Below, piece after piece: positions 10,619 to 18,288 of a DNA stretch of 44,860 nucleotides (position 1 is its first letter; every line of letters starts with the position of its first letter). Under the pieces are notes generated by a model. That model ran no database searches. It was not told where the DNA came from and worked only from the letters and a program-made list of their open reading frames with translations. The DNA is taken from NCBI GenBank assembly GCA_947179295.1, contig CAMXAZ010000020.1, positions 1 through 44,860 of the forward strand. Direction: 5' to 3'. The stretch comes from an uncultured Muribaculaceae bacterium. Lineage in GTDB: Bacteria; Bacteroidota; Bacteroidia; Bacteroidales; Muribaculaceae. Both the position numbers and the translations under genes were made by a program.

Positions 10619-13600
10619 ATGATCAACATCTACAAGGCTTCGGCCGGTTCAGGAAAGACATTTACCCTTGCCCGCGAATACATCAAACTGCTTCTCGGCA
10701 GAAAAGATGAATCGGGCAGATACCATCTGCGCAAATCTGCAAGCGGATCACACAGATCCGTGCTGGCCATCACGTTTACCAACAAGGCCACAGAGGAAAT
10801 GAAAATCCGAATCATCCATGAGCTTGCCGTCATTGCCGGACTGGAGAAAGGCTGGACCAAAACAAGTCCCTATGAAGCAGATCTGTGCGCTGCATTCCGC
10901 TGCACATCCGAAGACCTGAAAACCGCAGCCGCCACTGCATTGCGCAGCCTGCTCTACGATTTCAACTTTTTCAGCGTCTCGACCATCGACTCCTTCTTCC
11001 AGCTCATACTGCGGTCATTCGCACGTGAAGCTGAAGTGTCAGGCAACTACGAACTTGAACTTGATGACAAGGGAGTGATAGGAATGAGTGTGGACAAACT
11101 TCTCCAGGACCTCAACCACGGAGAGCAGACCGCCCGCACAAATTATCTAATCAACTGGCTTTCCAGTTACATGACGCATCTGATCGAAGACGGGCGCACG
11201 TTCAACATCTTCAACCGCAGCTCATACATTCACCGCGATCTTATCTCATTCATCAACGATATCACAGACGACGTCTTCCGTGAAAACGAGAGCCGGCTGA
11301 TGGAGTACTTTGCCGATGAAAAGAAATTTGACAGTTTCAAGAACCACATATATAATATAATCGGCAAAATCACCCGCCAGACTGCTGCCGCCTGCAAGGC
11401 CGCGGTAGATGCCATTGACAACAAGAAAGCACGTGACATAGTCTCGGCGAATGTCTACAAGCCCCTTGTCAAATGGAAGAAGAACGGCTATGACAGCAAA
11501 GCGCTTTCCGCTACGATAATCAAGGTCGAAGGCGACATCGAGCAGGCATATGTCAAAAAAGGCAAGACATCGCCGCTACGCACACCGGAACTCGACGGGC
11601 TGATAAGCAATGCCGTGGCATCAATGTCATTCAGCGCAAAAAATGTCAGACCGCTGAAAATCATAGCCGCGAATCTCTATCAGCTGGGTATGCTCTCGAC
11701 TCTTACTGCATATCTCGACAAATTCCGACAGGAAAACTCGACAATTCTGCTGAGTGACACCAATGCGCTTATCGCAAAGATCATAGGCAACGAAGACGCA
11801 CCGTTTCTCTATGAGAGAGTCGGCGTGTGGTTCAAGCACTATCTGATAGACGAATTTCAGGATACATCCCACAGTCAGTGGCAGAACATCAGGCCACTGA
11901 TCAGCGAAAGCCTTGCCTATGACAACGACAATCTCGTCATCGGTGATGAAAAGCAATGCATCTACCGCTTCAGAAACAGCGATCCGACTCTGCTCCACAA
12001 TCTTCACAATGAAGAAATGGCCCAGGGGCGCACCGTCATCAGCGGAAATTCCATTGAAGAGAACACCAACTGGCGATCATCGGCTGATGTTATCAAATTC
12101 AACAACACTTTTTTCTCCGCTCTTGTCAAAAACCTGGGATATGAAGATATCTATTCCAATGTAGCCCAGCAGATTTCTCCGAAACATCTCTCCCACCGCG
12201 GCTATGTCAGAGTCAAAGTCTATTCCGGTTCAAAGAAAGAAGACTGGATGGCTGAGGCGCTTGACAATCTGACAGTGGAGCTGCGCCGCCAACTGATGTC
12301 GGGCTATCGTCCGGGAGACATCGCCATTCTTGTCAGACGCTGGGATGAAGGAAATGCAGTGATCGGCCATCTTGAAGAGGTGCGTAAAGCAGATCCGTCT
12401 TTCCCTGAGTTCAGGATCGTGTCAGACTCTTCGCTTCTCATCGGAAATTCACCCGCGGTGTCTCTAATCCTCAGCCGACTGCGTCTTCTTTCATCAACGG
12501 ATTTCACAACAAGCCCTCGCAAAAAGACCCAACGCGAGATAGCCAACCTTATCAACCGTTACGAATCACTGCGCACCGACAGCGCCATGCCCCCGGCTAC
12601 CGCTCTTGATCTCGCTCTACGAGCCGACGAAAACACCGCCGGCGAAATGTTCAGTCCTCAGAAAGAGACCATATCAACCGGCCAGACTCCGACTTCAATC
12701 GACCTCGTATCGCTGGTTGAGAACATCATTGTCAATTTCGTTCCCGAAAAAAGCCGCCGGAATGAAAATCTCTACCTCACCGCATTTCAGGATCTGGTCA
12801 CTGAATTCGTGGGGCGCGGACAGGGCGACATACGCGCATTCCTTAGATGGTGGGACGAATCTGGCCATAAATCGGCTATAGCCGGAGCCAAGGATGACAG
12901 CGCACTCAATATCCTTACAATCCACAAATCCAAAGGACTGGAATATCCCTGCGTGCACATTCCGTTCGCCCAGATGAACAGCGGGACCCATTCGGAACTC
13001 GCCTGGTTCGAGATTGACGAAATTCCTGGCGTTCCGTCCGACTGCATTCCGCCGATGATTCCGCTGAAACTGTCATCGTCAATGGAAGGGACTGTCTTTG
13101 CCGACAGGTATGCCGAAGTGACAGCCCAGGCAAAACTTGATACTGTCAATCTCCTATATGTGGCTTTCACAAGAGCCGTTGATGAACTGCACATAGGCAT
13201 AACCTCACCAGATGCTAAAGGAGCAAGCATAGGCCCTGATATCTACAAAGCCCTGACTATGTGCGACCCCTCCTTCTGCCAGGAGCTCGAACAGGCCAAC
13301 GGAATTCACGATCTCTCGCAATCGCCATTCACGTCATTCACGCTGGCTGACAGTCTGATCACCCTCGGCCGGCCATCGGTCAAATCGGCAGAAGAACATG
13401 CGGAGAAAACATCTCTCACACCGTCAAAACTGCTGGAAATAGACTGCTACGACTCCCAGTCACACCGCTCGTTCTGGGACAACACCCACCTTGAAGAAAA
13501 ATATTACAACATTGAGGATGCCCGTGACCGCGGCATAATGCTTCATGACACAATGGCTGCAATACGCACAGTGGCAGATGTCCCGGTGGCCGTCAACAAT

Positions 13601-13960
13601 CTGCGCCATTCAAAAAAGGCAAAAGAACTTACAGAGGCTGATATCGAGGAAATCCGTTCGATTATAGAAAGCAGAGTAAAGGACCCGCGGGCGGCCCGAT
13701 GGTTCGACGGCTACACACGGCTGCTGATAGAGCGACCCGTGGTCTTGTCTCCGTCAGAATCACGACGCCCTGACCGCGTGGTGTGGACCGCCGACGGTCA
13801 TATCGACATCATTGACTTCAAGAGTGGATCGCAGCCGGCAGGCAAATACCGCAGGCAGCTGACAGAATACGCCCGTCTGCTATCAGAACTCGGATATCAG
13901 AATCTCCGGGCCTATCTCTACTATCTTGACAGTGGCGAAATCGTTGAGTTTACCGTATGA
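10619..13960 (+). CDS. UvrD-like helicase-nuclease, AddA/RecB type
   Basis: A 1113-residue superfamily 1A helicase for double-strand-break repair. Motif I is ASAGSGKT at residues 7-14, motif Ia is AITFTNKATEEMK, motif II is LIDEFQDTSHSQW, GDEKQCIYRFR is motif III, LTIHKSKGLEYPCVHIP is motif V, and LLYVAFTRA is motif VI. The C-terminal ~200 residues end in a PD-(D/E)XK nuclease core with IDFKSG at ~1065-1070. This is the layout of AddA and RecB (exonuclease V beta). The AddB/RecC partner usually coded alongside is absent from the window: upstream is the YciH gene, downstream the Phe/Tyr operon. No terminator other than a weak AT hairpin (13995-14015) follows. Confidence 0.88.
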   Translation: MINIYKASAGSGKTFTLAREYIKLLLGRKDESGRYHLRKSASGSHRSVLAITFTNKATEEMKIRIIHELAVIAGLEKGWTKTSPYEADLCAAFRCTSEDLKTAAATALRSLLYDFNFFSVSTIDSFFQLILRSFAREAEVSGNYELELDDKGVIGMSVDKLLQDLNHGEQTARTNYLINWLSSYMTHLIEDGRTFNIFNRSSYIHRDLISFINDITDDVFRENESRLMEYFADEKKFDSFKNHIYNIIGKITRQTAAACKAAVDAIDNKKARDIVSANVYKPLVKWKKNGYDSKALSATIIKVEGDIEQAYVKKGKTSPLRTPELDGLISNAVASMSFSAKNVRPLKIIAANLYQLGMLSTLTAYLDKFRQENSTILLSDTNALIAKIIGNEDAPFLYERVGVWFKHYLIDEFQDTSHSQWQNIRPLISESLAYDNDNLVIGDEKQCIYRFRNSDPTLLHNLHNEEMAQGRTVISGNSIEENTNWRSSADVIKFNNTFFSALVKNLGYEDIYSNVAQQISPKHLSHRGYVRVKVYSGSKKEDWMAEALDNLTVELRRQLMSGYRPGDIAILVRRWDEGNAVIGHLEEVRKADPSFPEFRIVSDSSLLIGNSPAVSLILSRLRLLSSTDFTTSPRKKTQREIANLINRYESLRTDSAMPPATALDLALRADENTAGEMFSPQKETISTGQTPTSIDLVSLVENIIVNFVPEKSRRNENLYLTAFQDLVTEFVGRGQGDIRAFLRWWDESGHKSAIAGAKDDSALNILTIHKSKGLEYPCVHIPFAQMNSGTHSELAWFEIDEIPGVPSDCIPPMIPLKLSSSMEGTVFADRYAEVTAQAKLDTVNLLYVAFTRAVDELHIGITSPDAKGASIGPDIYKALTMCDPSFCQELEQANGIHDLSQSPFTSFTLADSLITLGRPSVKSAEEHAEKTSLTPSKLLEIDCYDSQSHRSFWDNTHLEEKYYNIEDARDRGIMLHDTMAAIRTVADVPVAVNNLRHSKKAKELTEADIEEIRSIIESRVKDPRAARWFDGYTRLLIERPVVLSPSESRRPDRVVWTADGHIDIIDFKSGSQPAGKYRRQLTEYARLLSELGYQNLRAYLYYLDSGEIVEFTV

Positions 13961-14045: not shown

Positions 14046-14077
14046 TTTGGCAGTTCCTCTAAGAATGCCTACTTTTG
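14046..14077 (+). promoter_or_regulatory. Promoter of the Phe/Tyr biosynthesis operon
   Basis: TTTG at 14046-14049, a 20-nt spacer and TACTTTTG at 14070-14077 match the Bacteroidetes consensus exactly. The start site is expected near 14082, about 33 nt before the leader peptide's ATG. Confidence 0.75.
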
Positions 14078-14114
14078 TGGCAAAGATTTCAAAAACAACT
14101 TTTCAAAATCAGAC

Positions 14115-14171
14115 ATGAAGCGATTTTACGCATACTCCTATTTTTATTATTTTTATTTTGACAAAAAATAA
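14115..14171 (+). CDS. Aromatic (Phe/Tyr) leader peptide of the attenuator
   Basis: An 18-codon frame, ATG 14115 to TAA 14169-14171, reads MKRFYAYSYFYYFYFDKK. Ten of its 18 residues are Phe (4) or Tyr (6), seven of them in one uninterrupted run at residues 9-15. It lies between an exact promoter and a terminator/antiterminator pair, upstream of genes for both Phe and Tyr synthesis. This is the design of ribosome-mediated attenuation (compare pheL of enterobacteria). The stop codon's last base is the first base of the antiterminator arm, so a ribosome that finishes the peptide would cover that arm. The peptide itself need have no other job. Confidence 0.85.
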   Translation: MKRFYAYSYFYYFYFDKK

Positions 14172-14264
14172 GAACGGGATTTGCATGTGTGATTTTTTGC
14201 ATCAGACTAATTTTTATAATATCGAATAACGATCCCGTTCTCCAATGTGAAAACGGGATTTTTT
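14171..14264 (+). promoter_or_regulatory. Two-state attenuator: antiterminator and terminator
   Basis: Arm A, AGAACGGGAT (14171-14180), is a perfect 10-bp complement of arm B, ATCCCGTTCT (14232-14241): the antiterminator. Arm B also pairs over 8 bp (14232-14239) with arm C, AACGGGAT (14252-14259), which runs into six Ts ending at 14264: an intrinsic terminator. The two structures exclude each other. Ribosomes slowed at Phe/Tyr codons leave arm A free and permit read-through; ribosomes reaching the stop codon at 14169 mask arm A and favour termination. pheA starts 17 bases after the T run. Confidence 0.85.
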
Positions 14265-14281
14265 AATTATCATAACCGACA

Positions 14282-15127
14282 ATGAAAAAGGTCACGATCC
14301 AGGGAGTAGCCGGCTGCTATCACGATGCCGCCGCACATCTCTACTTCAACGGAGAAGAAATACAGACAGTGGCGTGCGAGACATTTCCCGCCATGTTCGA
14401 AACTTTGGCCAACGATGCGTCACTCTTCGGAATAATGGCGATTGAAAACACAATAGCCGGCAGCCTTCTGCAGAACCACGAGCTGCTGCGTCAGAGCAAT
14501 CTCTCGATCATAGGAGAGCTGAAACTCCGCATCTCACACGTGATAGCCACTCTTCCCGGACAAACTATTGACGAATTGTCGGAGGTCAACTCCCATCCTA
14601 TGGCGCTTATGCAGTGCGAACAGTTTCTGCGCCGCCATCCCAATCTCAAAATCGTAGAGCGCCTTGACACAGCCGGAAGCGCCAAAGAGATAGCCGAAGG
14701 AAATCTGACAGGCCACGCTGCGGTCTGCGGAGAGTATGCCGCCAATCTCTACGGACTCAACATCCTTGAAAAAGGTATCGAGACCAACAAACGCAACTTC
14801 ACCCGATTCCTCATTCTGGCAGATCCGCTGCTCGCAGCAGAACATGGCCCTGCGGAAAGAGATATCAACAAAGCGTCAATAGTATTCACCACACCCCACA
14901 CCCAGGGTGCGCTGTCCAAAATCCTGACCATACTCTCGTTTTTCGACATCAATCTCTCAAAGATACAGTCGATGCCCATTATAGGCCGCGAGTGGGAATA
15001 CCGATTCTACGTTGATTTTACGTTTGACAGCCTCGTGCGCTATCATCAGGCAATGGAAGCCGTCAGACCGCTGATCAAAGATCTTAAGGTACTCGGTGAA
15101 TATGCCGAAGCCCAAATGACACATTAA
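14282..15127 (+). CDS. pheA: Prephenate dehydratase PheA
   Basis: A 281-residue enzyme converting prephenate to phenylpyruvate, the committed step to phenylalanine. The catalytic domain (~1-180) shows IQGVAGCYHDAAA at the start, MAIENTIAGSL, SHPMALMQC and NFTRFLIL, the TRF motif needed for activity. A C-terminal ACT domain (~195-275) includes GALSKILTILSFFDINL. The ESRP motif of the E. coli allosteric site is replaced by IQSMPI, so Phe feedback may differ. First structural gene after the attenuator and 77 bases before the aminotransferase gene. Confidence 0.93.
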   Translation: MKKVTIQGVAGCYHDAAAHLYFNGEEIQTVACETFPAMFETLANDASLFGIMAIENTIAGSLLQNHELLRQSNLSIIGELKLRISHVIATLPGQTIDELSEVNSHPMALMQCEQFLRRHPNLKIVERLDTAGSAKEIAEGNLTGHAAVCGEYAANLYGLNILEKGIETNKRNFTRFLILADPLLAAEHGPAERDINKASIVFTTPHTQGALSKILTILSFFDINLSKIQSMPIIGREWEYRFYVDFTFDSLVRYHQAMEAVRPLIKDLKVLGEYAEAQMTH

Positions 15128-15204: not shown

Positions 15205-16374
15205 ATGGAAATCCGCCCCTCTCAAAGAGTTGAAAACATAAAGGAATACTACTTCTCAACCAAACTCAAAGAAGTGGCCGCAATGAAAGCCGCCGGCCAC
15301 GATGTCATATCGCTCGGCATCGGAGGCCCCGACCGTCCGCCTCACAAAGAAGTGATTGACACTATGGCAGTAGCATTGCAGGCACCCGACAATCACGGCT
15401 ATCAGCCCCACGTGGGCCTGCCGGAACTCCGCCAGGCTTTTGCGGAATGGTACAGAAAGTGGTATGGCGTAGAGCTTGACCCTAAATCAGAGATTCAGCC
15501 GCTGATCGGCTCTAAAGAGGCGGTGACCCATATATCACTGGCCTTTCTGAATCCTGGCGACGGAGTGCTCGTTCCCAACCCCGGCTATCCTACCTATTCT
15601 TCTATCAGCCGCCTTGTCGGAGCCGAAATCTTCAGTTATGATCTCAAAGAGGAAAGCGGATGGCAACCCGACTTCGAGGCTCTTGAGAAACTCCCTCTTG
15701 ATCGCATAAAACTCATGTGGATCAACTATCCCCACATGCCGACAGGCGCCGCCGCCAGAATGGAGACATTTGAAAAAGCCATTGCCTTCGGCAAGAAACA
15801 CGGCATAGTGATAGTGAATGACAACCCCTACTCTTTCATACTCAACGACCGCCCGATGAGCATACTCCAGGTGCCTGGAGCCAAAGAGATAGCCATTGAA
15901 ATGAATTCACTCAGCAAAAGCCACAACATGCCGGGCTGGCGTGTGGGCATGGCCGCTTCAAACCCCACATTCATTTCCTGGATACTGAAAGTAAAGAGCA
16001 ACATAGACTCCGGACAGTTCAAGCCGCTCATGCTTGCTGCCGCCAAAGCCCTTGAAGCAGACCAAAGCTGGTATGACGAAGTCAACGCACTCTACGGTTC
16101 TCGCCGCAAAGTGGCCGAGGAGCTCATGACAGCCCTCGGATGCTCGTTCGACCCATCGCAGAAAGGCCTCTTCCTCTGGGGACGCATCAACGATCCGGAT
16201 GTGACATCAGAAGCTCTTGCCGACCGTCTGCTCAAAGAGGCTAAAGTATTCCTCACTCCCGGATTTATATTCGGATCAAACGGCGAACGCTACATACGCA
16301 TCTCTCTCTGCGCCACAGAAGACCGAATGAAAGAAGCCCTGCAGCGAATACTCGCGCTCGACAACCATAAATAA
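15205..16374 (+). CDS. PLP-dependent class I/II aminotransferase, probably aromatic
   Basis: A 389-residue fold-type I aminotransferase. It has VISLGIGGPDRPP near the N-terminus, VPNPGYPTY at ~123-131, the NDNPY cofactor motif near 205-209, the Schiff-base Lys238 in NSLSKSHNMPGWR, and the substrate-carboxylate Arg in RYIRISLC near the end. It resembles LL-DAP/alanine/aromatic aminotransferases. Its place between prephenate dehydratase and DAHP synthase strongly suggests it aminates phenylpyruvate and 4-hydroxyphenylpyruvate to Phe and Tyr. Substrate choice is inferred from context. Confidence 0.88.
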   Translation: MEIRPSQRVENIKEYYFSTKLKEVAAMKAAGHDVISLGIGGPDRPPHKEVIDTMAVALQAPDNHGYQPHVGLPELRQAFAEWYRKWYGVELDPKSEIQPLIGSKEAVTHISLAFLNPGDGVLVPNPGYPTYSSISRLVGAEIFSYDLKEESGWQPDFEALEKLPLDRIKLMWINYPHMPTGAAARMETFEKAIAFGKKHGIVIVNDNPYSFILNDRPMSILQVPGAKEIAIEMNSLSKSHNMPGWRVGMAASNPTFISWILKVKSNIDSGQFKPLMLAAAKALEADQSWYDEVNALYGSRRKVAEELMTALGCSFDPSQKGLFLWGRINDPDVTSEALADRLLKEAKVFLTPGFIFGSNGERYIRISLCATEDRMKEALQRILALDNHK

Positions 16375-16416: not shown

Positions 16417-17484
16417 ATGGAAAATATCCAACCGCTCGCAATTGACGGAGTAGAACTCTCAAAACCCATTATAATCTCAGGCCCCTGCAGCGCCGAAACA
16501 GAAGAGCAAGTGCTCGAAACAGCCACCCAACTTGCACGCAAAGGCGTGAAGATCTACCGTGCCGGCATCTGGAAACCACGCACCAAACCCGGCGGATTCG
16601 AGGGCGTAGGCGTTCCCGGACTCGCATGGCTCAATAAAGTCCGCAAGGAAACCGGCATGAAGATCTCGACCGAGGTTGCAAACCGCAGCCATGTCGAAGC
16701 CGCACTTGAATATGACCTGGACCTTCTCTGGATCGGTGCCCGCACATCGGCCAACCCGTTTGCTATGCAGGAGATAGCCGACGTGCTCCGCGAAAGCGGC
16801 CGTGACATTCCAGTGCTTGTAAAAAATCCCGTCAACCCGGATCTTGAACTCTGGATCGGCGCGCTCGAACGCCTTTACAACGCAGGCATCACCCGCCTCG
16901 GCGTGATCCACCGCGGATTTTCCACCTATGGCGAACACATCTACCGCAATCATCCCCAGTGGCGCATTCCTCTCGAACTCCGCATCCGCTATCCGCAGAT
17001 ACCCATCATCTGCGATCCGAGCCACATCGGAGGCAAGCGCGAACTGATCGCCTCTCTCTCCCAGCAGGCACTCGACATGGGCTTCGACGGCCTGATCATC
17101 GAGAGCCACTGCAACCCTGACTGCGCCTGGAGCGACAAGAACCAGCAGATCACACCCGAAGTGCTCAGCGTGATTCTCGACAACCTCGTCTACCGCGATG
17201 CTCCGGCTCCTGCCGAAAGCCTCGTGCAGCTGCGCCGTCAGATCGACCAGCTCGACAACGAACTGCTTGAAGTGCTTGCCAAGCGAATGAACATCTCACG
17301 CGAGATAGGTACTTACAAGCGTGACCACAACATGCCCGTGGTCCAGCCCAACCGTTACGGCGATGTGATGAGCACCCGAATCCTCGCAGCCAAGTCAATG
17401 GGCATCGGAGAAGAATTCATGCGCTCGATCCTTTCGGCCATCCATGAGGAATCTGTCCGTCTGCAGGTAGAAATCAACAAATAA
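16417..17484 (+). CDS. Bifunctional DAHP synthase / chorismate mutase
   Basis: A 355-residue fusion joining the first shikimate step to the branch point for Phe/Tyr. Residues ~1-260 are a KDO8P-synthase-like (Ibeta) DAHP synthase: SGPCSAET, RAGIWKPRTKPGGFEG, VLVKNPVN, HRGFS, CDPSHIGGKRE and IIESHCNPDCAWSD. Residues ~268-355 are an all-helical AroQ chorismate mutase with LRRQIDQLDNELLEVLAKRM and a catalytic-type Lys in GTYKRDHNMPVV. The same domain order occurs across Bacteroidetes. A mutase domain attached to the synthase usually also gives feedback by prephenate; that is family knowledge. It lies 42 bases after the aminotransferase gene. Confidence 0.93.
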   Translation: MENIQPLAIDGVELSKPIIISGPCSAETEEQVLETATQLARKGVKIYRAGIWKPRTKPGGFEGVGVPGLAWLNKVRKETGMKISTEVANRSHVEAALEYDLDLLWIGARTSANPFAMQEIADVLRESGRDIPVLVKNPVNPDLELWIGALERLYNAGITRLGVIHRGFSTYGEHIYRNHPQWRIPLELRIRYPQIPIICDPSHIGGKRELIASLSQQALDMGFDGLIIESHCNPDCAWSDKNQQITPEVLSVILDNLVYRDAPAPAESLVQLRRQIDQLDNELLEVLAKRMNISREIGTYKRDHNMPVVQPNRYGDVMSTRILAAKSMGIGEEFMRSILSAIHEESVRLQVEINK

Positions 17485-17514
17485 GAAACTCTTTTGAAGC
17501 CTCCTCACAAGATA

Positions 17515-18288
17515 ATGAAAATACTGATTCTCGGAGCCGGGAAAATGGGCAGTTTCTTTTGCGACCTGCTTTCATTCGACCATGATGTGGCCGTCTATGA
17601 TCCGGACCCCAAACGCCTGCGCTTCACTTTCAATGCCCGGCGCTTCAAAGATCTTGAAGAAGTCAGGGACTTCGATCCGCAGCTCGTCATAAACGCATCC
17701 ACGGTGAAATACACCCTCGATGCCTTCAAAGCCGTGCTCCCCTATCTGTCAAAATCGTGTATAATCAGCGATATCGCCTCGGTCAAGACAGGTCTGCCTG
17801 AGTTCTACGCCGGATGCGGACACCCCTATGTCAGCACCCATCCGATGTTCGGCCCGACATTCGCCTCACTCAGCAATCTGAGCAACGAAAACGCCATCAT
17901 CATCAGCGAAGGCGACCATCTCGGCAAGATCTTTTTCCGCGACATCTATTCAAGGCTCCACCTGAACATTGTAGAATACACATTCAAGGAACATGACGAA
18001 ACCATAGCCTATTCGCTCTCCATACCATTTGCCGCCACCCTGGCATTTGCCGGAGTAATGAAGCACCAGGAAGCGCCGGGCACTACCTTCAAGCGCCACA
18101 TGCAGATAGCCCGCGGTCTCATGTCGGAAGACGATTACCTTGTCAGCGAGATCCTCTTCAATCCCAACACTCCTGAGCAGCTGATGAAAATACAGTCGCA
18201 GATGGCAGAGCTTCTTGACATCATAAAGCGCCACGACAGCGAGGCCATGAAAGCCTACCTCGCCCGCGTCCGCCAGAATGTCGAATAA
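17515..18288 (+). CDS. tyrA: Prephenate dehydrogenase TyrA
   Basis: A 257-residue NAD(P)-dependent enzyme oxidising prephenate to 4-hydroxyphenylpyruvate, the Tyr branch. The dinucleotide-binding LILGAGKMGSFF opens the protein, followed by YDPDPKRL, SDIASVKTGLPE and the substrate motif STHPMFGPTFASL, then a helical dimer domain. I choose the ATG at 17515 over the TTG at 17494 because the Rossmann strand begins right after it. It is the last gene of the attenuator-controlled unit, 30 bases after the DAHP synthase gene and before a 20-bp terminator. Confidence 0.9.
   Translation: MKILILGAGKMGSFFCDLLSFDHDVAVYDPDPKRLRFTFNARRFKDLEEVRDFDPQLVINASTVKYTLDAFKAVLPYLSKSCIISDIASVKTGLPEFYAGCGHPYVSTHPMFGPTFASLSNLSNENAIIISEGDHLGKIFFRDIYSRLHLNIVEYTFKEHDETIAYSLSIPFAATLAFAGVMKHQEAPGTTFKRHMQIARGLMSEDDYLVSEILFNPNTPEQLMKIQSQMAELLDIIKRHDSEAMKAYLARVRQNVE

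Follow-up and report, generated by a model that had tools for sequence, protein, structure and literature searches.

The prephenate dehydratase gene (pheA) of an uncultured Muribaculaceae bacterium is preceded by a short frame rich in Phe and Tyr codons and by segments that could form two alternative hairpins. Is the operon that starts with this gene controlled by a ribosome translating that frame, as an earlier note on this DNA had proposed, and how widely does the arrangement occur? The window analysed here is the whole stretch of 44,860 nucleotides (contig CAMXAZ010000020.1, assembly GCA_947179295.1); its family, order and class are Muribaculaceae, Bacteroidales and Bacteroidia.

Elements upstream of the operon and the genes downstream

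A re-reading of the letters located the promoter pair, the leader frame, arms A, B and C and the six T residues where the earlier note had placed them (Table 1). The TTTG/TACTTTTG pair is assigned to what we take to be the Bacteroidetes promoter consensus. In the leader, 10 of the 18 codons specify Phe or Tyr (4 Phe and 6 Tyr). The antiterminator (A:B) consists of 10 perfect pairs, a pairing reached by none of 100 shuffles of arm A, and the terminator (B:C) of 8 perfect pairs around a loop of 12 nt. As arm B is used by both, the two hairpins are mutually exclusive; in the window, 50 nt separate CGGGATT from ATCCCG. A general scan of the window reported neither this promoter nor this terminator; it looked for sigma-70 promoters and for terminators with a loop of 3-8 nt, compared with 12 nt here. 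The leader uses TTT for each of its four Phe residues, and the four operon genes together contain 36 TTC and 15 TTT codons.

Table 1. Features of the leader region and of the downstream operon in the window
Feature	Position	Strand	Description
Promoter-like pair	14046..14077	+	TTTG 14046-14049, 20-nt spacer, TACTTTTG 14070-14077; TAnnTTTG type
Leader ORF MKRFYAYSYFYYFYFDKK	14115..14171	+	ATG 14115 to TAA 14171; 18 codons
Arm 1, within leader ORF	14126..14133	+	Partner is 14185-14192
Arm A (segment 2), AGAACGGGAT(T)	14171-14180(81)	+	5' arm of the antiterminator
Arm 2'	14185..14192	+	Partner of arm 1, directly 3' of arm A
Arm B (segment 3), (G)ATCCCGTTCT	14232-14241	+	Common to antiterminator and terminator; 14231 adds a G-U pair
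Arm C (segment 4), AACGGGAT	14252-14259	+	Forms the intrinsic terminator with arm B
U-run TTTTTT	14259-14264	+	3' end of the intrinsic terminator
Prephenate dehydratase PDT (pheA), first gene of the operon	14282..15127	+	PF00800, E 1.6e-51
Class I/II aminotransferase, assigned at family level	15205..16374	+	PF00155, E 5.9e-63
DAHP synthase-chorismate mutase fusion	16417..17484	+	PF00793, E 2e-37; PF01817, E 1.4e-22
Prephenate dehydrogenase (tyrA)	17494..18288	+	PF02153, E 2.5e-9

The domain matches of all four downstream genes agree with the claimed content of the operon, i.e. genes for Phe and Tyr synthesis. The tyrA product also matches the NCBIfam prephenate dehydrogenase model (E 2.5e-16, under the curated cut-off); its start codon is uncertain, with TTG 17494 listed and 17515 used for the profile search. 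At least two Phe and at least two Tyr are present in 150 of the 154 leaders from the family and the order's other families, which fits the view that mixed Phe and Tyr codons suit an operon making both amino acids.

Occurrence of the leader among relatives

A leader was called when a short ORF lying at most 400 nt upstream of a PDT gene had 7 or more Phe/Tyr among 13 residues. PDT (PF00800) is present in 18/27 genomes of the genus, 128/198 of the family, 111/247 of the order and 102/118 of those sampled across the phylum. Of the PDT-bearing genomes, the upstream DNA was read for 87 of 133 distinct ones in the family and for 90 of 108 in other families, mostly best-scoring first; two family loci and one other-family locus among these 177 were dropped for short upstream DNA.

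Phe/Tyr leaders precede PDT at 76/85 loci of the family (dinucleotide shuffles, 30/1700; antisense, 0/85) and at 78/89 loci of the order's other families (shuffles, 29/1780; antisense, 3/89). The peptide is thus conserved in relatives, as the proposal implied. The leader was also found at 19/21 loci from other orders of the class (shuffles, 13/420), for which 22 loci were fetched from 24 genomes with PDT and one could not be located. A named set of Bacteroides/Phocaeicola/Prevotella-type loci (80 loci, two of them too short) gave 74/78 (shuffles, 3/1560) and includes Phocaeicola vulgatus ATCC 8482, Bacteroides fragilis, B. xylanisolvens, Paraprevotella xylaniphila and Prevotella. Across all sets, at most 3.1% of shuffles satisfied the leader criterion. 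Of the 30 best-scoring phylum loci, 28 lie outside the class, and no Phe/Tyr leader was detected at any of these 28, many of which come from one family. Among eight genus leaders of equal length, pS is 0.214 and pN is 0.040 (28 non-independent pairs).

The promoter element accompanies the leader. TAnnTTTG occurs at most 110 nt upstream of it at 72/75 loci of the family and at 58/77 of the other families (shuffles, 148/1500 and 154/1540, respectively), and together with a TTG 17-21 nt before at 66/75 and 45/77 (shuffles, 21/1500 and 11/1540); one leader locus per set was dropped from these counts for short upstream DNA.

By our criterion, the leader is absent from 9/85 family and 11/89 other-family loci. 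The nine family loci with PDT and no leader (L011, L013, L025, L083, L086, L093, L099, L105 and L115) may reflect loss, another type of control, or a PDT gene within another operon. Separately, PF00800 was not found in 9 of the 27 genus genomes (G008, G009, G011, G015, G017, G018, G021, G022 and G025), four of which are at least 90% complete; these are possible Phe auxotrophs or assembly gaps.

The leader is specific for its operon. In the window's genome and relatives, the same scan detected a leader with at least 7 Phe/Tyr upstream of hisG, trpE or ilvD in 1/24 cases. None was found upstream of pheS at 10 loci, one of which (L354, from the window's genome) is a piece that does not start at the gene start. 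Likewise, no His-, Trp- or Thr-rich leader was seen at hisG (8 loci), trpE (5 loci) or thrA (11 loci, the gene start being unfetched in 9). The upstream regions of 11 ilvD loci gave short ORFs rich in Ile, Leu and Val, counted without a shuffle control. The most leader-like of these ilvD ORFs are at L224 and L228, from another genus, and could possibly encode branched-chain leader peptides.

Some loci carry two Phe/Tyr leaders in series (20 of the 268 with at least 450 nt upstream of PDT). Of 19 such tandem loci examined, 12 have a terminator and an A:B pairing (score at least 15) in both copies, a count made without a shuffle control. These loci are L053, L069, L070, L071, L075, L126, L135, L136, L147, L152, L169 and L174.

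Alternative pairings, spacing and the proposed switch

A terminator follows the leader at 146 of the 154 leader loci (70/76 in the family and 76/78 in the others) and was not found at the remaining eight. Arm A beat 95 of 100 shuffles at only 101 of the 146 terminator loci. Because arms picked by their pairing are biased towards pairing, a partner-swap test was run, in which the stretch after the last Phe/Tyr codon was scored against its own B arm and against the B arms of other loci. It serves as the controlled test, the column-wise covariation table (101 loci) being biased by the pairing-based choice of the arms. For 141 of the 146 loci, the score with the own arm was 22.11, compared with a swap mean of 16.54 and a highest value of 17.30 in 2000 permutations. 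The same held in the family (22.91 vs 19.94), in the other families (21.32 vs 16.56), among the named loci (20.68, highest swap 19.93, n=67) and in the other orders of the class (21.11, highest swap 17.75, n=18). Arms A, B and C are thus conserved with covariation, the own partners beating all 2000 permutations, and the leader and the hairpins are not due to chance. A GATTAAC...ATAT-like stretch recurs just 5' of arm B at nine loci (L020, L021, L022, L029, L030, L041, L042, L043 and L045); its end can extend A:B.

The earlier note had seen no 1:2 pausing hairpin. A 1:2 pairing is present in the window, where TTACGCAT pairs with ATGTGTGA; with 8 bp including two G-U, it is weak. In a further swap test, the start of the leader ORF was scored against the stretch that begins with base 4 of arm A, at 95 of the 101 loci whose A arm is supported. 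The own score was 18.29, compared with a swap mean of 14.38 and 15.39 for the highest of 2000 swaps (family, 18.49 with a highest swap of 16.35; other families, 18.06 and 15.87). A 1:2 hairpin thus exists, its arm 1 lying within the leader ORF, although it is weak in the window itself.

Arm A begins at the final base of the leader stop codon in the window (14171), as had been noted. As a conserved spacing this relationship does not stand, since the distance that is kept counts from the last Phe/Tyr codon. In the window, the last Phe codon ends at 14159, with 11 nt between it and arm A. The gap has a median of 12 nt in the family and of 11 nt in the other families, and it falls within 8-15 nt at 127/141 loci, vs 22.8% of shuffles. 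The named loci have a median gap of 13 nt (8-15 nt in 63/67; shuffles, 21.5%). This ruler is looser or shorter in the other orders of the class, with a median of 8.5 nt and 10/18 loci at 8-15 nt (shuffles, 25%). Where the A arm is supported, the gap is uncorrelated with how many codons follow the last Phe/Tyr (r 0.01), and the distance from the stop codon to arm A is strongly correlated with it (r -0.90). The stop codon precedes arm A in some genera and lies beyond it in others; in leaders that end, for instance, in KNKNGVLCA, arm A is inside the ORF. The footprint of a ribosome extends about 10 nt past its A-site codon. Arm A therefore starts where a ribosome stalled at the last Phe/Tyr codon would end, and its downstream edge would set such a distance.

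The behaviour of arm A in the presence of ribosomes was modelled by folding transcripts that stop at arm B, with the nucleotides under the ribosome masked. Over 141 loci, the median probability of A:B was 0.91 with a stalled ribosome, 0.00 with a ribosome on the stop codon and 0.62 with no ribosome. It was higher in the stalled state than on the stop codon at 137/141 loci, and higher than with no ribosome at 119/141. For the window, with an assumed start at 14084, the corresponding values were 0.91-0.95, 0.00 and 0.40; across two fold runs, the value with no ribosome lay between 0.40 and 0.66, and 1:2 had a probability of 0.49 in the ribosome-free transcript ended at arm B. For the full-length window RNA at equilibrium, the terminator prevails in each of the ribosome states tried (B:C, 0.68-0.97), so the switch must be kinetic and decided before arm C is made. 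The proposal that a ribosome at the stop codon covers arm A holds for the majority of loci. The modelled footprint covers at least 80% of A at 100/146 loci, i.e. only 51/70 in the family and 49/76 in the others, and it falls short of this at the remaining ones.

Taken together, these comparisons support the reading of the earlier note, with two details changed: the locus is very probably a ribosome-mediated attenuator of the Phe/Tyr operon, responding jointly to charged tRNA-Phe and tRNA-Tyr. We base this on the sequence, its conservation, the covariation of the alternative pairings, the spacing ruler and the content of the operon, and infer from them leader translation, stalling, read-through and close coupling of ribosome and RNA polymerase. 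When Phe or Tyr is short, the ribosome would stall in the Phe/Tyr run, covering arm 1 and ending just before arm A. Arm A would then be free to pair with B once B is made, so that the terminator would be blocked and the operon transcribed. When both amino acids are plentiful, the ribosome would reach the stop codon and cover arm A; B:C would form, and transcription would end at the U-run. Without translation of the leader, 1:2 would compete with A:B and favour termination.

This last step distinguishes the proposed switch from the version of the earlier note, with A:B and B:C only, in which an untranslated leader would allow read-through by default. The two G-U pairs in the 8-bp 1:2 of the window speak for that version, as does the fold model, which leaves A:B of the window at 0.40 to 0.66 when no ribosome is present. 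We nevertheless consider it unlikely, as the own 1:2 pairing exceeds all 2000 swaps both in the family and in the other families. An arrest peptide of the TnaC/SecM type, in which the nascent chain would halt the ribosome on a ligand and the hairpins would follow, would account for the conserved RFYAY start and FFYYFYF core in the window's family. Across families, however, the order and number of residues vary while the Phe/Tyr richness is kept, and the ruler holds when counted from the last Phe/Tyr; the RFYAY codons overlap arm 1, which would give an RNA-level reason for their conservation. This makes peptide arrest very improbable.

A structured 5' region in front of an amino-acid operon might also be a riboswitch, a T-box or a protein-binding leader, to which we attribute only a minute probability. 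No family of the Rfam copy searched, which includes Phe_leader and Bacteroid-trp, matched the window leader or 12 related loci at gathering score. For the window as a whole, a tRNA was the only match at gathering score, with none to the T-box, and the conserved features found are codons and pairing arms. Lastly, AT-rich DNA easily yields TTT and TAT codons, and a large ORF (10619-13960), which we take to be helicase/nuclease-like, ends 154 nt before the leader; the elements might thus be the plain intrinsic terminator of an upstream gene together with a chance ORF. This reading is already contradicted by the conservation results, and its probability is close to nil: in the family and in the order's other families fewer than 2% of dinucleotide shuffles satisfy the leader criterion, the A arms covary, and the promoter-like pair sits between the upstream gene and the leader.

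Significance and relation to known attenuators

Classical attenuation requires a ribosome close behind RNA polymerase. A leader present in most sampled members of a class, with a ribosome-sized ruler, would be a ready test of this coupling in Bacteroidetes. The promoters of this phylum and its way of starting translation are unlike those of enterobacteria, and initiation is thought to use little Shine-Dalgarno pairing. On balance, we favour the broader view that one Phe and Tyr attenuator has been kept before pheA throughout the class, that its ruler corresponds to the leading edge of the stalled ribosome, and that in several families it occurs as two complete copies, one after the other. In that case, ribosome and RNA polymerase would have to be coupled kinetically in these bacteria, and the attenuator would offer a natural read-out of this coupling. 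For cultured species, among them Phocaeicola vulgatus ATCC 8482 and Bacteroides fragilis, the attenuator is a likely regulator of Phe/Tyr synthesis. The gathered loci could seed an RNA family, as no match was obtained in the Rfam copy searched.

This kind of attenuator is known; the leader family, its spread, the ruler and the tandem copies were not found in the literature searched. We found no description of a Bacteroidales pheA attenuator there, and broader comparative studies of attenuation may contain Bacteroidetes cases. Lopatovskaya et al. 2010 (Mol Biol 44:128) reportedly compared attenuation in bacteria, and Vitreschak et al. 2004 is said to be such a study on proteobacteria. In a map of B. 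thetaiotaomicron, short ORFs reminiscent of leader peptides are mentioned (PMC7366714). The remark of the earlier note that this control is less described in Bacteroidales is thus correct for pheA as far as the searched literature goes, and it needs qualification for the phylum, where Bacteroid-trp and Flavobacterium psychrophilum provide precedents.

In pheL, a short leader rich in cognate codons is followed by segments 1-4, with a terminator before pheA. The window has the same anatomy as this enterobacterial pheL-pheA system (Rfam Phe_leader, RF01859). As in attenuators of the pheL/trpL type, a short ORF with many codons for the amino acids that the operon makes precedes an antiterminator and a terminator that exclude each other and have a common arm; the spacing and the fold model suggest that a stalled ribosome would leave A free and that one at the end would cover it. 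Unlike pheL, the leader of the window mixes Phe and Tyr, which fits its dual-product operon, and its promoter is of the Bacteroidetes type. The Phe_leader model scored 14.6 bits (E 9.3) against the window, below its gathering score of 55.

Bacteroid-trp (Rfam RF01692) comes from the same phylum as the window and differs in its leader codons, which are Trp. It had no match in the window, and none in the window's genome at E 0.001. In two copies (L343 and L344), a short ORF contains a pair of neighbouring Trp codons (MRSILVNTYWWRYLQLNKS and MNTILVNTYWWQFLQLP), suggesting that this RNA, listed as cis-regulatory (PMC2864571), is a Trp attenuator. As to pheA itself, a transcriptomic study of Flavobacterium psychrophilum suggests leader-peptide attenuation and describes a pheA 5' element conserved across other Flavobacteriaceae genera (PMC9723704). 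This structured element precedes the same gene as the attenuator of the window and probably belongs to the same family.
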